Origin: Oscillibacter sp.
Lineage (GTDB): Bacteria > Bacillota > Clostridia > Oscillospirales > Oscillospiraceae
NCBI GenBank assembly: GCA_017547085.1
Contig: JAFYQM010000055.1
Coordinates: 1 to 51,644 of the forward strand
Reading direction: 5' to 3'
DNA: 51,644 nucleotides
Part shown: positions 20,523 to 28,065 of the stretch, piece by piece
How positions within the stretch are numbered: the stretch's first letter is position 1
Layout of the letters: each line of letters begins with the position of its first letter
Program-made: the position numbers and the translations under genes
The notes under the pieces: model-generated
Seen by the model: only the letters and a program-made list of their open reading frames with translations
Databases searched by the model: none
Told to the model about the DNA's origin: nothing

Positions 20523-22166
20523 TTACTTGTTTGCAGTAGCCTTCTTGATACCGAACAGAACGGCAACGGTCAGCACAATGCCAACAGGCAGCATAATGAT
20601 GGCGGGAATGTTCATCAGAGAGAACACACCGGTCAGCAGGTAGCAAACCAGAGAAATGCCTGCCACCAGAATGGCGTAGGGCAGCTGGGTGGAAACATGG
20701 CCCACGTGGTCGCACTGTGCACCGGCAGAAGCCATGATGGTGGTATCGGAAATAGGAGAGCAGTGGTCGCCGCAGACAGCGCCAGCCATGCAGGCAGAAA
20801 TGGAAACGACCATCAGGGTATTGTCCATGTTGCCGCCGAAGACGGAAACAACGATGGGGATCAGGATACCGAAGGTGCCCCAGGAAGTACCGGTAGCAAA
20901 TGCCAGGAAGCAGCCAACCAGGAACACGATAGCAGGCAGCAGAACGATCAGGTTGCCGGCGGAGGACTCCACGATACCGGCCACATAGTCAGCAGCACCC
21001 AGAGAGTCGGTCATTGCCTTCAGAGTCCATGCGAAGGTCAGGATCAGGATGGCGGGAACCATGGACTTGAAACCTTCAGGAATCGCGGTCATGCACTCAC
21101 GGAAGCTGAGTACGCGGGTAACCAGATAATAGATGATGGTGATAACCAGTGCCACCACAGAGCCGAACACCAAACCCACGGAAGCGTCGGAGCCTGCGAA
21201 AGCATCGATAAAGCTGGCACCTTCAAAGAAGCCGCCGGTGTAGATCATACCCACAACGCAGCAGGCGATCAGCACGATGATAGGCAGAACCAGATGTGCC
21301 ACAGTACCCTTGGCGCTGATCTTATCCTCGGGAGCGGGATCGGCGCCGGTCAGGCTGGCATAAACTTCCTTCTCGCTCTCTTCAGCGGTGTTGGAAGCGG
21401 CCTCGGCCTTCTTCATGGGGCCAAAGTCAAAGTTCAGAACAGCCAAGGCCAGAACCATAACGATAGTCAGCAGTGCATAGAAGTTGTAGGGAATAGACTT
21501 GATGAACAGAGTCAGGCCATCCGTGCCATCCACGAAACCGGACACGGCAGCAGCCCAGGAAGAAATGGGAGCGATGATGCAGACAGGAGCTGCGGTGGCG
21601 TCGATCAGATAAGCCAGCTTTGCGCGGGAAATGTTGTGCTTATCGGTCAGAGGACGCATCACGCTGCCCACGGTCAGGCAGTTGAAATAGTCGTCGATGA
21701 AGATCAGGCAGCCCAGAGCCACAGTAGCCAGCTGTGCACCTACGCGGGTCTTGATGTGATCGGCAGCCCAGCGACCGAATGCGGCAGAGCCGCCGGCACG
21801 GTTCATCAGGATGACCATGGCGCCCAGAATGACCAGGAAAATCAGGATGCCCACGTTCCAACTGTCAGACAGCTGAGCGATCATGCCGTCCACGAACACA
21901 TGGTTGATGGTACCCTCAAAGCTGAAGCCGGAATACATCAGGCCGCCGGCCAGAATACCGACAAACAGAGAAGAGTACACTTCCTTGGTAATCAGGGCCA
22001 GAGCGATTGCCACCACGGGAGGCAGCAGAGACCAGATGGTCTGGTAGAAGGGGATAACAACTTCAGCTTCTTCGCCAGTGGCGAAAGCAGTGGCAGTCAT
22101 CATGCACAGGGCCAGAACCATCAAAATGGCTGTGCCGAACCGCCGGGAAATACGACGAGTCTTCAT
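20523..22166 (-). CDS. NhaC-superfamily transporter, probable lysine transporter
   Basis: A 547-residue NhaC-family membrane protein with about 12 hydrophobic segments. Family landmarks include FIDDYFNCLTVGSVMRPLTD, DATAAPVCIIAPISSWAAAV and CGDHCSPISDTTIMASAGAQ. The family as a whole exchanges Na+ or H+ with small molecules. The first 30 residues (MKTRR..., hydrophobic, AFATG) look like a cleavable signal peptide placed before the first membrane helix. The gene sits directly behind a lysine riboswitch with its own terminator, and riboswitch-linked NhaC proteins have been proposed as lysine transporters (named LysW in comparative work). Uptake of lysine coupled to Na+ or H+ is therefore a better guess than Na+/H+ antiport. 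Confidence 0.88.
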   Translation of the reverse strand: MKTRRISRRFGTAILMVLALCMMTATAFATGEEAEVVIPFYQTIWSLLPPVVAIALALITKEVYSSLFVGILAGGLMYSGFSFEGTINHVFVDGMIAQLSDSWNVGILIFLVILGAMVILMNRAGGSAAFGRWAADHIKTRVGAQLATVALGCLIFIDDYFNCLTVGSVMRPLTDKHNISRAKLAYLIDATAAPVCIIAPISSWAAAVSGFVDGTDGLTLFIKSIPYNFYALLTIVMVLALAVLNFDFGPMKKAEAASNTAEESEKEVYASLTGADPAPEDKISAKGTVAHLVLPIIVLIACCVVGMIYTGGFFEGASFIDAFAGSDASVGLVFGSVVALVITIIYYLVTRVLSFRECMTAIPEGFKSMVPAILILTFAWTLKAMTDSLGAADYVAGIVESSAGNLIVLLPAIVFLVGCFLAFATGTSWGTFGILIPIVVSVFGGNMDNTLMVVSISACMAGAVCGDHCSPISDTTIMASAGAQCDHVGHVSTQLPYAILVAGISLVCYLLTGVFSLMNIPAIIMLPVGIVLTVAVLFGIKKATANK

Positions 22167-22581: not shown

Positions 22582-23940
22582 TTAATACTGGCCCAGATTG
22601 CCTGCGTTGTCGGAGTGCTCGGTCTTGCCGAACTCATAGTCGTTGCCGGGCAGGATGGCGTTGAGAACGATACCTGCGATGGCAGCAATGGCCAGAGAGG
22701 TCAGGGTGATGGAAGCGCTGCCCACCTGGAAGGTGAGGCCGCCAGAGAAGCCCAGGCCACAAACCAGAATGACAGCAGCAATGATCAGATTGCGGCTGTT
22801 GGTGAAGTCCACGCGGTTTTCCACCACGTTGCGCACACCGATGGCGGAGATCATGCCATACAGGATGAAACTGACGCCACCAATGATGGCTGCGGGCACG
22901 GTGTTGACCAGAACGGCGAACTTGGGACTGAAGGACAGGATGATCGCATAGATGGCAGCCAGACGGACCACACGGGGATCATACACGCGGGACAGAACCA
23001 GAACACCGGTGTTCTCACCGTAAGTGGTGTTGGCAGGGCCGCCGAACATGGCGGACAGAGAGGTGGCAATACCGTCACCGATCAGAGTGCGGTGCAGGCC
23101 GGGATTCTCAATGAAGTTATCGCCTACAGTGGCGGAAATAGCGGACATATCACCAATGTGCTCCATCATGGAAGCAATCGCGATAGGAGCCATCACCAGA
23201 ATAGCAGAGATATCAAACTTGGCAATGCTGCCGCTCATATTGGTCACGAAAGGCTGGAAGCCCAGGAAAGCGGCATCCTTGGCGGCAGAGAAATCAACAA
23301 CGCCAACCACAGCAGCCACCACATAAGGAACCACAACGCCCAACAGAATGGGAACGATCTTGATCATGCCCTTGCCCCAAATATTGGCCACCACGATGAC
23401 GGCAATGGACAGGATAGCCAGCCACCAGCAGGTGGATGCATTGGACACGGCGGAAGGAGCCAGATTCAGACCGATCAGGATAATGATGGGACCGGTGACC
23501 ACGGGAGGCAGGAAGCGCATGACCTTATGCACGCCCACCAGTTTGATGATAGCAGCCAGAACCACATACAGCAGGCCTGCCACCACGATACCGCCGCAGG
23601 CATACTGCAGCTTCACCGCAGGATCCATACCGGCATAGATGCCGCTGTCCATTGCACCCATGGCGGCAAAACCACCCAGAAATGCAAAGGAGGAGCCGAG
23701 GAAGGCAGGTACCTTCATCTTGGCGCAGACATGGAAGAACAGGGTGCCGATACCGGCGAAGAACAGGGTGGTCTGAATATTCAGGGGCAGGCCGTAGCCC
23801 TGCACCAGAATGGGAACCAGCACGGTGGCGCCGAACATGGCAAACATGTGCTGCAGGCCCAGAATCAGCATTCTGGGTACGCCCAGCTTCCGGGCGTCCC
23901 GAATGGGCTCCTGACCGATGGTGGATTTTTTCTCGTTCAT
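22582..23940 (-). CDS. uraA: Uracil permease (NCS2 family)
   Basis: A 452-residue nucleobase:cation symporter-2 with about 14 hydrophobic segments. Hallmarks are GLQHMFAMFGATVLVPIL, the QYACGG region, GLNLAPSA, and GGPANTTYGENTGVLVLSRV, the NCS2 substrate-site region with conserved Glu. The PANTTYGEN form is typical of uracil rather than xanthine carriers. The frame is open upstream to 23994, but AGGAGAAAACAA places the start at 23940 (MNEKKSTIGQ). Its leader carries a short translatable ORF ending at an intrinsic terminator (24004-24069), so it is probably regulated by pyrimidine level through attenuation. Confidence 0.93.
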   Translation of the reverse strand: MNEKKSTIGQEPIRDARKLGVPRMLILGLQHMFAMFGATVLVPILVQGYGLPLNIQTTLFFAGIGTLFFHVCAKMKVPAFLGSSFAFLGGFAAMGAMDSGIYAGMDPAVKLQYACGGIVVAGLLYVVLAAIIKLVGVHKVMRFLPPVVTGPIIILIGLNLAPSAVSNASTCWWLAILSIAVIVVANIWGKGMIKIVPILLGVVVPYVVAAVVGVVDFSAAKDAAFLGFQPFVTNMSGSIAKFDISAILVMAPIAIASMMEHIGDMSAISATVGDNFIENPGLHRTLIGDGIATSLSAMFGGPANTTYGENTGVLVLSRVYDPRVVRLAAIYAIILSFSPKFAVLVNTVPAAIIGGVSFILYGMISAIGVRNVVENRVDFTNSRNLIIAAVILVCGLGFSGGLTFQVGSASITLTSLAIAAIAGIVLNAILPGNDYEFGKTEHSDNAGNLGQY

Positions 23941-23978
23941 TTGTTTTCTCCTCTCAATATATTCACAAACTTGCGCGC

Positions 23979-24004
23979 AAAAAAATACCGGCACTCATGC
24001 CGGT
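23979..24004 (-). terminator. Intrinsic terminator (attenuator) in the uraA leader
   Basis: A 7-bp stem ACCGGCA/TGCCGGT with a 4-nt loop (24004-23987 on the minus strand), then TATTTTTTTG. It sits 39 bp before the uraA start codon, so it must be read through for expression. The first base of the stem is the last base of the leader-peptide stop codon. Confidence 0.85.
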
Positions 24005-24069
24005 CAAACAAAAGAAAAAGGAGAAAAAGACCCCGCTGCCATACATGCAGAATGCATCGAATACAGCAT
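24004..24069 (-). CDS. Putative 21-residue leader peptide of uraA
   Basis: A small frame with its own strong ribosome site (AGGAGG, 8 bases before ATG 24069). It encodes MLYSMHSACMAAGSF followed by SPFSFV and stops at TGA 24006-24004. The last 27 nt are U-rich in the transcript (19 of 27) and run directly into the attenuator, which overlaps the stop codon by one base. A ribosome that reaches the stop would cover the 5' arm of the terminator. The layout copies the logic of the E. coli pyrBI leader, in which RNA polymerase pausing at U-runs under low UTP lets the ribosome catch up. Translation and UTP sensing are inferred. Confidence 0.6.
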   Translation of the reverse strand: MLYSMHSACMAAGSFSPFSFV

Positions 24070-24102
24070 ACGATTGTCCTCCTCTCGATCTTTTCCTGCA
24101 TC

Positions 24103-24131
24103 ATTATACAGAAAGAACCGTCCTTTTTCAA
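24103..24131 (-). promoter_or_regulatory. Sigma-A promoter of the uraA leader
   Basis: TTGAAA (24131-24126), a 17-bp spacer and perfect TATAAT (24108-24103) on the minus strand. Transcription would start near 24096, giving a leader of about 155 nt before uraA. Confidence 0.8.
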
Positions 24132-24180: not shown

Positions 24181-24210
24181 AAATGACAGCGGGTTTTCCC
24201 GCTGTCATTT
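24181..24210 (-). terminator. Terminator overlapping the DUF523 gene stop codon
   Basis: A 13-bp perfect stem AAATGACAGCGGG/CCCGCTGTCATTT with a TTTT loop; the minus strand continues TTGACAATTTTC. The stop codon of the DUF523 gene (24207-24205) lies inside the stem. Confidence 0.85.
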
Positions 24211-24636
24211 GAGCAGTTCTTCGATCTGAGACTCGCCAAACACCGCAATCCCCTGTGCCGTCAGTAATTCCGCCGTCACGCCGTCTCTCGCCGTCAGGGT
24301 TGCAGAAAAGGTCCCATCGTAGATACTCCCCTTACCGCAAGAAGGGCTGCGTTCCTTCAGCACCGCAGCCTCGCAGCCAAACAGCCTGCAAAGCCGCAAT
24401 GCTTCCTCCGCTCCCCGGCGGTACTGCGCCGTCACGTCCGCGCCAGTATTTGCCACCACACGGTCTCCCTGCCGTTCCGAGGGCGGACGGGGCGTGGACA
24501 GACCGCCCAGCTGTTCCGGACACACCGGTACCAGTGTGTGCCGCCGCGCCAGTTCTTCGATACCGGAATAGGGTTTGCTCACCCCGTCATAGCGGCAGCG
24601 CACACCCAACAGGCAGGCCGAGATCAAAATCTTCAT
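24205..24636 (-). CDS. DUF523 family protein
   Basis: A 143-residue protein of the widespread DUF523 family. It starts MKILISACLLGVRCRYDG, then LVPVCPEQLGGLSTPRPPSE, and later LKERSPSCGKGSIYDG. The conserved cysteines in SACLLG, PVCPE and SPSCG suggest a metal or thiol site, but the function is not established. The frame is open upstream to 24702, yet GAGGCGGG and the family start place the ATG at 24636. It begins 7 bp after the DUF3783 gene. Confidence 0.85.
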   Translation of the reverse strand: MKILISACLLGVRCRYDGVSKPYSGIEELARRHTLVPVCPEQLGGLSTPRPPSERQGDRVVANTGADVTAQYRRGAEEALRLCRLFGCEAAVLKERSPSCGKGSIYDGTFSATLTARDGVTAELLTAQGIAVFGESQIEELLK

Positions 24637-25537: not shown

Positions 25538-26614
25538 TCACTCTGACGCCAGCGCGGCGTAGTCGGCCAGATAGTCGATGATGGAGTCCTCTTCGCTGTA
25601 TGTCACTTCCACGACCCGCTTATCTTCCCAGACCACCAGAACCTCGTAACCATACTGCTCACTGACCATCCACCACGTACCGTCGATGTCCGCACCTGCC
25701 AGCGGCTCCATGTCATAGTATTTTACCAGATCATGCGCCATGCGCTCGGCCTGCGCACGAAAGCGGAAATCATAGCAGCGGCTCTCCGTCATGTCATAAT
25801 TGTTGACACCCTGCAAGACCCACCATTGCTCTACCGTGTGCCAGTTTTTCCAGTGAAGGGCCTCTACAATTTCTCCTTCGTTCAGTTCCACATGTGGCAC
25901 CGGCCGGTCGAAGCTCTCTTCCGGTTCAAAATGCCGGCTGTTAGGCTCAAACAAAGCCACGGTACGGGACACCCAAAAGGCGATATAAACAACCAGCGCA
26001 ATGGTTGCCAGTACACAGCTTTTCTGATACGGCCGCCGGTGAGGCATCTCAATCCCCGCTTTCAGTGTCCTAAGGAAGTTCCCCAGTGACCGCCACCAGT
26101 AAATCATCTGCCAGACGGCAAACAGGATGGTTGTCCATACAACGGCGCCCTCCCACATGGGCTTTGAATCGCGCACCATTTTCACGCCGTAATCCTCTGT
26201 CAGCAGCGTGAAAATCAGTACCAGAACCAGCGGCAGCGCCAGAATTGCACAGCAAATCGAAGTTCCGATCTTCAACTGCCGCCACAGCCATTCATAGGCT
26301 GCGGCCTGCACCTGCGGGTCGGTATTCAGCTCCGGTGCGTCCGGGTCTTCACAGCACCAGACATGGAAGTTGGCGTTGCTGGTGATATGTTTCCATCCAA
26401 GAGAGCCATAGACCTCCCGTTTTTCAAGGTCCGGAACCTCCTTACCCTTGCGCATCTTCGGCTCCATGCGGTAGCGGACGGTTTTGGGTTCCCCTTTTTT
26501 GAAATTCGCATAAAATCCGTTATGCTCCAGCAGGATATTTCCTTTCGCCGCTTCATCCTCCAGCCACGCCTGATGGGCGGCTACATCATAATTGGAGATC
26601 GGTGCGATCTTCAT
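25538..26614 (-). CDS. DUF2812 membrane protein (first of two paralogs)
   Basis: A 358-residue protein with an N-terminal DUF2812-like soluble region (QAWLEDEAAKGNILLEHNGFYANFKKGEP) and three or four hydrophobic segments between about residues 115 and 235, then a C-terminal domain ending EVLVVWEDKRVVEVTYSEE. It lies 15 bp after a paralog and is under the same PadR gene. PadR/DUF2812 sets are common in Firmicutes; an envelope-stress or transport-related role has been guessed but not shown. Cytoplasmic-membrane location is likely. Confidence 0.75.
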   Translation of the reverse strand: MKIAPISNYDVAAHQAWLEDEAAKGNILLEHNGFYANFKKGEPKTVRYRMEPKMRKGKEVPDLEKREVYGSLGWKHITSNANFHVWCCEDPDAPELNTDPQVQAAAYEWLWRQLKIGTSICCAILALPLVLVLIFTLLTEDYGVKMVRDSKPMWEGAVVWTTILFAVWQMIYWWRSLGNFLRTLKAGIEMPHRRPYQKSCVLATIALVVYIAFWVSRTVALFEPNSRHFEPEESFDRPVPHVELNEGEIVEALHWKNWHTVEQWWVLQGVNNYDMTESRCYDFRFRAQAERMAHDLVKYYDMEPLAGADIDGTWWMVSEQYGYEVLVVWEDKRVVEVTYSEEDSIIDYLADYAALASE

Positions 26615-26629: not shown

Positions 26630-27751
26630 TTATGCCAGTTCCGCGGCGATTTCATCCACATGAGCCAGCAGGTCTGCCGGGAAATCCACTTGCAGGAAAT
26701 AGACCACTTCCCCGCTGCGTACCAGCAGCATCTGTTCCTTTTCCCCACGCAGCAGCATAGCTTCGTCAAAGGCCGTGTGTTCCACCGTCTGTTTCTCTGC
26801 CGCAGAATGCTCCTTCAAAAACTCCCGCTTTGTTTCCTGATACAGGGCCTTTGCCAGCCACTCGAACCGCAGGCGGCTGCGGGCATTCATGACGCTCATC
26901 TCTCCCTGATACGCAAACCGCCGCTCATCCGACCGAACCGGACGCAGCGGCTTGCACTGCCGCCGGTAGGCGGAGAAATCCGGTTCCCAGTTCTCCGTTC
27001 CCTCCGCCAGCTGTTCTGTGGATACATAGGGCAATCCGGAGGTATCCGGTCCCTGTTCGACGGCCATCCAGAAAATATCCGCCATCCATGCTCCGAGCCA
27101 GAAAGCCAGCACAATTACGACAGAAACGCGCCATCGGCTGCGGCTGCGCCGCCAGTTGTCTCCTGTGGTGTGCCTGATACCGGCAGCCAACTTTTTACGG
27201 GCTTGATAGATCTGCCGTAGCCGCCATACCGTCAGCACAGTAAACACCGGCATGATAACCAACAGCAAAAACAGCATACGGAACTCCGCTTCTAACAGAT
27301 ATTCCAGCAGCGTTTCCCCCACAATGAGCATCGACACCAGTACGATCAGCACCACCGCCAGCATCGCCGCCAGCAGCATCCATCCGTATCTCCAGCTCTT
27401 GCGCAGCGGCTCCTGCCACGCCATGGCAAATACCTCCGGATCGGTGTCCAACTCCGGAATGGTGGGATCGTCACAGTAATAGACCTCAAAATCCATTCCC
27501 AGCGCCACTGCAAACTGCCAGCCCATCTCTTCATAAACTGCAATGCGCTCCTGCCAGGCCTCTTTGGCTTCCGGATCGCAGGGATAGACGCGCATACGGC
27601 ATTCCTGCGGCTCCACCCGTTTGAATTTAGCAAACCAACCGCTGCAATCCGTGATGCGCCAGCCGCGCCGTGCTTCCTCCTCCAGCCACTGCTCAATGGC
27701 GGCAGGGTCCCACATCTCCTGCGGTGCAATGGTCCGTTTCTTCTGCCTCAT
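26630..27751 (-). CDS. DUF2812 membrane protein (second paralog, next to PadR)
   Basis: A 373-residue paralog of the next gene: IEQWLEEEARRGWRITDCSG and FAKFKRVEPQECRMRVYP give the DUF2812 start, TDPEVFAMAWQEPLRKSWRY matches the paralog's TDPQVQAAAYEWLWRQ, and three hydrophobic segments follow. ATG 27751 (MRQKKRTIAP) overlaps the padR stop by four bases (ATGA) and has GAGGAGG upstream; the 12 extra upstream codons are not needed. The coupling to PadR suggests that this protein is the main target of its repression. Confidence 0.8.
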   Translation of the reverse strand: MRQKKRTIAPQEMWDPAAIEQWLEEEARRGWRITDCSGWFAKFKRVEPQECRMRVYPCDPEAKEAWQERIAVYEEMGWQFAVALGMDFEVYYCDDPTIPELDTDPEVFAMAWQEPLRKSWRYGWMLLAAMLAVVLIVLVSMLIVGETLLEYLLEAEFRMLFLLLVIMPVFTVLTVWRLRQIYQARKKLAAGIRHTTGDNWRRSRSRWRVSVVIVLAFWLGAWMADIFWMAVEQGPDTSGLPYVSTEQLAEGTENWEPDFSAYRRQCKPLRPVRSDERRFAYQGEMSVMNARSRLRFEWLAKALYQETKREFLKEHSAAEKQTVEHTAFDEAMLLRGEKEQMLLVRSGEVVYFLQVDFPADLLAHVDEIAAELA

Positions 27752-28065
27752 GTCTGCGCCTCCTCTCTGTCTCCGTCGGCAACACACAATTTCAGGCGGC
27801 TTAGCTCCTGCCGGAACAGGGCACTGCCCCGCTCCGTGATGGCATAGGTACGCTTGCGCCCGTCCACGGCAGTCTCCCGAATCAATCCTTCTTCCTGAAA
27901 TTTAGCCAGAATGGTATACAGCGTGCCCGGGCCCAGAGGCACCCGCCCTGCCGTGCGTTCATCCACAAACTGCACGATCTCCGTGCCGCACCGCTCCTGC
28001 CGCAGCAGACTGAGCAGCACATAAAACATACTCTCTGTCAGTACTTTCAACGGCTCTTTTGCCAT
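27748..28065 (-). CDS. PadR-family transcriptional repressor
   Basis: A 105-residue PadR regulator with a winged HTH (LTESMFYVLLSLLRQERCGTEIV, then GPGTLYTILAKFQEEGLI and GRKRTYAITERG) and a short C-terminal dimerisation helix. Two copies of AATATCG-N5-CGATATT lie immediately upstream, the first touching its GGAGG ribosome site, so it very likely represses its own operon. The stop codon overlaps the DUF2812 start. Confidence 0.93.
   Translation of the reverse strand: MAKEPLKVLTESMFYVLLSLLRQERCGTEIVQFVDERTAGRVPLGPGTLYTILAKFQEEGLIRETAVDGRKRTYAITERGSALFRQELSRLKLCVADGDREEAQT

Follow-up and report, generated by a model that had tools for sequence, protein, structure and literature searches.

A conserved leader before uraA in Oscillibacter: a candidate translation-coupled attenuator resembling that of pyrBI

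The uracil permease gene uraA of an Oscillibacter sp. genome is preceded by a short leader ORF that ends on an intrinsic terminator, and the U-rich tail of this ORF is predicted to pair with the leader's own ribosome-binding site. The gene lies in a stretch of 51,644 nucleotides (contig JAFYQM010000055.1), here called the window. The ORF, the placement of the terminator and the hairpin are evident from sequence and conservation, and as judged by these means the arrangement is genuine and conserved, and within the scanned loci it is specific. Four points are inferred, namely translation of the leader, blocking of the terminator by the translating ribosome, a clock function of the hairpin, and UTP as the signal. 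Translation-coupled attenuation of uraA is very probable, and UTP is reasonably likely to be the signal of the attenuator. The full statement, i.e., a translation-coupled transcription attenuator of uraA that works like the one of E. coli pyrBI and responds to UTP, has in our estimate a little better than an even chance. The arrangement probably lets the cell make more of its uracil importer when uracil nucleotides are low.

The components of the locus are presented in Table 1. Several had been named in a sequence-only reading of the same DNA and were confirmed here, including the near-consensus promoter, the AGGAGG and 21-codon leader ORF, the 19 U residues in its last 27 nt (recounted with the TGA included), the single base shared by the TGA and the terminator stem (the A at 24004, first of the stem) and the downstream uraA ribosome site. 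A promoter scan of the window, which has a G+C content of 52%, yields one match as opposed to 0.4 ± 0.7 in shuffles, and none of 200 shuffles folds as well as the 164-nt leader (z -3.47). Taken by itself, the terminator scan does not exceed chance in the window (one found versus 1.2 expected); the decision therefore lies with the relatives, and conservation provides the stronger case. As for the protein, uracil permeases are its best matches among solved structures (E 1e-60 to 6e-62), and in a profile search the uracil permease model PRK10720.1 ranks second, below its cut-off. The motifs MEHIGDM and GENTGV presumably retain the two uracil-binding glutamates of UraA. The EHVGH segment of the solved permease 8omz aligns with EHIGD of the window protein, and the resulting exchange of histidine for aspartate affects what we take to be a position of the transport site.

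Table 1 Features of the uraA locus and its surroundings (positions in the window)
Feature	Position	Strand	Description
Na+/H+ antiporter-family gene	20523-22166		PF03553
Lysine riboswitch RF00168	22236-22405	-	87.6 bits; between uraA and the antiporter-family gene
uraA, NCS2 uracil permease, 452 aa	22582-23940	-	ATG at 23940; TIGR00801 over cut-off, PF00860
AGGAG, uraA ribosome-binding site	23948-23952	-	Identified by sequence
Intrinsic terminator	23979-24004	-	Stem ACCGGC-ATGAGT-GCCGGT (24004-23987), then A and seven T; found by RNAalifold in relatives
U-rich tail of leader ORF	24004-24030	-	19 U in 27 nt including TGA; proposed UTP-sensitive slow zone
Leader hairpin, 3' arm	24014-24036	-	Formed by the U-rich ORF tail
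Leader ORF	24004-24069	-	21 codons and TGA (24006-24004); peptide MLYSMHSACMAAGSFSPFSFV
AGGAGG, leader ORF Shine-Dalgarno	24078-24083	-	8 nt before the ATG; paired within the hairpin
Leader hairpin, 5' arm	24070-24096	-	Paired blocks 24096-24090, 24086-24076 and 24073-24070; runs roughly from the presumed start of transcription across the ribosome-binding site of the leader
Sigma-70-type promoter TTGAAA-17-TATAAT	24103-24131	-	-35 at 24131-24126, 17-nt spacer, -10 at 24108-24103; 11 of 12 consensus matches
TudS, 2-thiouracil desulfurase gene	24205-24636	-	PF04463; directly upstream of uraA
Two adjacent similar-looking genes	25538-26614, 26630-27787	-	DUF2812 for the first only; likeness by eye
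PadR-like regulator ORF	27748-28065		Beside the similar-looking gene pair; resemblance by eye

The uraA upstream regions were assembled from 137 loci, 131 of them distinct. Two draws from the genus (L001-L030 and L111-L137, less three duplicates) account for 54 distinct loci, and the loci of named genomes (L031-L110) are the best 80. Within the genus, a uraA match occurs in 77 of 86 genomes, distant paralogues counted in. Leaders were picked by four elements, irrespective of reading frame: the -10 box (TATAAT-like, ahead of the leader ORF), the ribosome site, the start codon and the terminator. The picker accepts 66 of the 131 distinct regions, namely 52 of the 54 genus draws and 14 of the 77 others, and two of these 14 (L034 and L044) are twins of genus loci. 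Nearly half (30) of the 63 other regions that were not accepted are labelled Lachnospiraceae. The two misses in the genus are L128 and L136, the latter having an equivalent terminator at a more upstream position, past a stretch rich in AT. Among the carriers of the layout is a cultured relative, Pseudoflavonifractor capillosus (L041). The picker also missed leaders visible by eye (L038, L043, L101 and L103), its choice of start may differ from that in the first ORF listing (L035, L039 and L120), and the terminator of L117 was corrected by hand after picking.

In all 66 picked leaders the ORF is open to the terminator, compared to 41.6 expected from dinucleotide shuffles. The excess persists when the set is thinned at 70% leader identity (35/35 versus 18.3 expected from single-base shuffles) and when it is reduced to 11 clusters by a looser identity measure (11/11 versus 7.4, dinucleotide shuffles). 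A point against the case is that only seven leaders are left at 60% identity (7/7 versus 4.0). The stop codon lies 6 to 1 nt before the start of the stem in 45 leaders and in or beyond the hairpin in the other 21; in four of the latter (L035, L044, L120 and L122) the picked ORF has no stop at all before uraA. Most ORFs span 14 to about 30 codons, their lengths differ among relatives, and the distances from start to stem occupy all three classes modulo 3. It is quite improbable that the arrangement is non-regulatory, consisting of a terminator that lowers uraA output and an ORF that is silent or due to chance. U-rich sequence does tend to be open in any frame (the +2 frame is open to the terminator in 49 of the 66 leaders; for the +1 frame the count is 20), but such an origin sits poorly with 66 open ORFs despite varying distances and peptides, with the stop codon at the stem in 45 leaders, and with the hairpin pairing described below. 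Sensing through a conserved nascent peptide was considered and rejected, as the peptides are dissimilar beyond close relatives when compared by eye. In L027, L035, L044, L120 and L122 the picked ORF reads through the entire terminator, like pyrL of E. coli.

The sequence-only reading had likened the leader to pyrBI, a view that finds partial support. The anatomy, the conservation of the ORF in 66 of 66 leaders, the lack of any sign of an antiterminator, the nucleotide-level U-richness and the failure to find PyrR all fit that logic, but the reading overlooked a second hairpin, which changes the likely mechanism. In this hairpin the leader ribosome-binding site, located in the 5' arm, faces the U-rich tail of the ORF, which makes up the 3' arm. 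RNAalifold, applied to groups of 7 and 13 leaders chosen from the 66, returns the same two hairpins in both cases, the ribosome-site hairpin followed by the terminator. Because purine-rich and pyrimidine-rich strands always pair to some extent, the arms were swapped between leaders as a control. True arms average -20.5 kcal/mol and swapped arms -17.5 kcal/mol, and 58 of the 66 leaders beat their swapped mean (p 1.5e-9). The advantage of the true arms remains after thinning at 70% (31/35, p 6e-6), among the 11 clusters of the looser measure (9/11, p 0.005) and at 60% identity (6/7, p 0.03). It is also seen in leaders from other genera and families, where the native arms outperform their swapped mean in 12 of 13 (p 0.0005); these are 13 of the 17 order-sample leaders presented below, L272 not having been located and L255, L260 and L267 having been left out.

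The pairing signal of the hairpin, as read from these sequences, is one of averages. By per-leader rank, only about one tenth of the 66 reach the top 5% of swaps and 30% the top 10%, and the rank of the window leader itself is 0.108. In 63 of the 66 folds, 70% or more of the ribosome site is paired. Strict covariation is thin, since changes on both sides are found in 2 of 20 and 3 of 17 pairs, one of the former two being a terminator pair, and some sequences of the two RNAalifold groups are unable to form several of the hairpin pairs. In the sublineage L119-L125 the leaders are short, and RNAalifold finds the ribosome-site hairpin there.

Leader ORF, hairpins and terminator are also the constituents of trp-, his- and phe-type leader peptides, and the distance from the hairpin end to the terminator stem (median 9 nt, quartiles 4 and 15) resembles the spacing of hairpin-dependent pauses. 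The hairpin might accordingly be a classical pause hairpin as in trp and his leaders, which would stall the polymerase some 10 nt further on, immediately ahead of the terminator, until it is opened by the leader ribosome. We regard this as unlikely: unlike the trp, his and phe types, the uraA leader has no codon excess beyond its nucleotide content and no sign of an antiterminator, since no stretch of it competes for the terminator's 5' arm (mean z of such pairing +0.24, below -2 in only 2 of the 66 leaders). A pause of this kind is, moreover, compatible with the translation-coupled attenuator rather than exclusive of it.

The last 27 nt of the picked ORFs contain 54% U and 80% pyrimidine, compared to 25% U in the rest of the ORF. 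Phe (151 of 660) and Ser (118 of 660) are the commonest residues of the tail, and Ser is somewhat above its shuffled value (1.79 versus 1.47 per 10 tail codons, by plain comparison of the values). Both facts would suit amino-acid attenuation through Phe or Ser codons. The Phe count, however, is what nucleotide content predicts (2.29 per 10 tail codons, shuffles 2.11, p 0.15), and the other two frames would encode even more of it (3.06 and 2.44 per 10 codons), so that the constraint appears to act on nucleotides. Since the tail is devoid of Phe in six of the 66 leaders, no antiterminator is indicated and the gene belongs to a family of uracil importers, attenuation by an amino acid is highly improbable.

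A more serious alternative concerns the signal. The same translation-coupled attenuator could respond to something other than UTP (the ease of leader initiation, CTP or growth rate), the tail being mainly an anti-Shine-Dalgarno arm; we consider this possible, if rather less likely than not to be the case. Pairing with the purine-rich ribosome-binding site alone demands pyrimidines, and the pyrimidine content of the tail is partly due to it; the hairpin thus explains part of the U-richness on which the pyrBI comparison had drawn. In addition, ORF and hairpin are kept in leaders with little U excess, as in the sublineage L119-L125 and in other families. The U count over the last 27 nt is 7 to 14 in the six scored leaders of L119-L125, which nevertheless retain ORF, hairpin and terminator, and the tails listed from outside the window's family have 8 to 13 U in 27. 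In L250, L251 and L253, which belong to the same family as the window, there are 2 to 8 U before a long stem, with the U-run inside the stem. Comparison with relatives, which the sequence-only reading had proposed as a check, upholds the open ORF in all 66 picked leaders, but the U-rich tail is weaker in L119-L125 and outside the family. The weakly U-rich tails of L119-L125 call for caution, as they weigh against the UTP claim.

On the other side, U is found opposite G in 219 of 556 cases in the hairpin as opposed to 35 of 364 in terminator stems, i.e., U is kept where C would pair better, and to a far greater extent than in terminator stems. The stretch between hairpin and terminator is also 53% U, though U is unneeded there for pairing. 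These two features hint, at the level of sequence, that U itself is selected. The layout, furthermore, marks the uracil importer among the loci scanned, with a single off-target hit. These three observations argue against a signal other than UTP.

Under the reading with UTP, transcription would start about 27 nt upstream of the leader ORF, at the position inferred from the promoter. A ribosome close behind the RNA polymerase would cover the 5' arm of the terminator and the polymerase would continue into uraA; on a leader without a close ribosome, transcription would terminate before the gene. The hairpin would serve as a clock: once the polymerase has passed the U-rich tail, the leader ribosome-binding site would be closed, so that only a ribosome loaded earlier could rescue transcription. 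When UTP is plentiful, the polymerase would cross the U-rich arm quickly, the site would close, the terminator would form and uraA expression would be low. When UTP is scarce, the polymerase would linger, a ribosome would load and catch up, and uraA would be made. A leader this short should need a delay of the polymerase, given what is reported in PMC4824070; the U-rich arm would be the delay zone and the hairpin would set the deadline for ribosome loading. The most specific form of the proposal is that UTP is gauged as a race, in which the polymerase on the U-rich arm builds the very RNA that shuts the leader's ribosome site, and that this gauge replaces PyrR in a large lineage of gut Clostridia for which searches turned up no PyrR. 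We advance it tentatively, at somewhat less than an even chance.

In E. coli, low UTP slows the polymerase across pyrL, the leader ORF of pyrBI, and the ribosome keeps up; UTP-sensitive, ribosome-dependent attenuation of this kind is a textbook case from enteric bacteria. Abundant UTP leads to fast transcription and termination, as described in PMC10135430, and, according to PMC5021804, close coupling across the leader keeps the terminator from forming. Like the uraA leader, pyrBI (pyrL; L285 in our set) has a short ORF over an intrinsic terminator before a pyrimidine gene and a U-run within the ORF upstream of the terminator. The uraA leader would work by analogy with pyrBI. The two differ in gene (here a uracil importer) and in phylum, and they are likened by layout, not by sequence. 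Whereas pyrL has 44 codons and ends past the terminator next to pyrB, uraA leaders are mostly shorter (14 to about 30 codons) and 45 of the 66 stop on the stem. The ribosome-site arm of pyrL pairs with its ORF no better than shuffles do (-18.7 versus -22.1, in a whole-ORF test that is not identical to the arm swap used for uraA), whereas in the uraA leaders that pairing is conserved.

The phylum was already known to have leader peptides, since those of the His type precede hisS and hisZ in bacilli and represent leader-peptide attenuators in Firmicutes (PMC2965389). Those leaders carry a run of His codons, according to the same source, unlike the uraA leader, and the main text of PMC2965389 is without the words pyrBI, uracil, pyrimidine, UTP and uraA. 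In a literature search of titles and abstracts, mainly of the open literature, we found no description of such an attenuator before uraA or in the order, nor, within the same scope, of a UTP gauge that operates by a race for the ribosome site. The RNA polymerase of B. subtilis outruns ribosomes, as reported in PMC9226507, and close coupling is therefore not a given in the phylum. If our proposal is true, it would represent a second way of gauging pyrimidines in Firmicutes, in genomes where PyrR was not found; a switch based on coupling would test here the closeness of polymerase and ribosome that has been doubted from B. subtilis; and the hairpin clock would be a simple and portable scheme for protein-free nucleotide sensing.

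PyrR-controlled pyr leaders of Bacillus are the familiar attenuators of pyrimidine genes in the same phylum. The sequence-only reading had seen no convincing PyrR antiterminator; it had also put forward PyrR-dependent control through a GAUCGAGAGG element near 24087 as the contrary case. The GAUCGAGAGG string (24090-24081) is part of the leader ribosome-binding region, and the Rfam search yields no PyrR element at this string even at E ≤ 10. PyrR is a usual regulator of pyrimidine genes in Gram-positive bacteria, as stated in PMC13328217, which favours such control in principle. However, no PyrR RNA element (RF00515) is found in the window or in 86 genus genomes, and none of these 86 genomes has a PyrR protein over the cut-off, in contrast to the pyr leaders of Bacillus. 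The weak matches to the PyrR model in 82 of the 86 genomes (the best at 36.6 bits as opposed to a cut-off of 138) are taken for other phosphoribosyltransferases. The best match in the window's own genome, an assembly that is 83% complete, reaches 20.7 bits against the same cut-off of 138. The searches detected their positive controls, B. subtilis and Lactococcus. The negatives are limited by the quality of the genus genomes, of which 42 of 86 reach 90% completeness or more with contamination of 5% or less; attenuation by PyrR is thus refuted as far as the genomes are complete.

No Rfam family reaches its gathering score over the uraA leader in the window or in 20 relatives, and weak matches to rseX, freshwater-2 and RyhB were rejected as being below their cut-offs. 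Reiteration at the start site, as in E. coli upp or codBA, was likewise rejected, as there is no T-run at the expected transcription start.

Across the order, a close uraA is found in 35 of 245 genomes, the window genome included. By scan and inspection, the leader layout is present in 17 of 35 uraA upstream regions from the 34 other genomes (a count that includes L255). Eight of the 17 belong to the window's family and nine to five others, including one family represented solely by L267, a weak member whose ribosome site is poor. Other weak members are L250 and L251, which start with TTG, L264, which starts with GTG, and L281, which has no -10 box by pattern. A PyrR protein occurs in four of the 35 order genomes and a PyrR RNA over the cut-off in one (with weak matches in four more), and none of these has the layout, which also argues against PyrR as the regulator of the leaders described here. 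Two order genomes (L271/G104 and L273/G281) have a pyrR gene a short way upstream of uraA and show no leader switch, as if one regulator had been exchanged for the other.

The layout is largely confined to uraA among the pyrimidine genes scanned. It was detected 29 times in 30 uraA loci, in none of 30 loci each of pyrB, carA and upp, and in one of 22 pyrG loci, the latter being an off-target hit. The loci over their family cut-offs number 30 of 30 for pyrB, 27 of 30 for carA, 25 of 30 for upp and 20 of 22 for pyrG. The scan covered the fetched flanks only, and a promoter further upstream in an operon would escape it. In the window genome, pyrG was not found and pyrB lies at a contig end.

The genes around uraA were also surveyed (Table 1). 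A TudS-like gene stands beside uraA in 25 of the 30 genus loci L001-L030, and this neighbour hints that the uraA locus serves uracil salvage. TudS acts on 2- and 4-thiouracil, as described in PMC10611767. In the window the TudS gene ends in a hairpin and a short T-run, which are recognized by sequence and were not called by the terminator scan. On the other side of uraA, the lysine riboswitch that separates it from the antiporter-family gene recurs near uraA in 7 of the 20 relatives scanned, and the antiporter may therefore move lysine.
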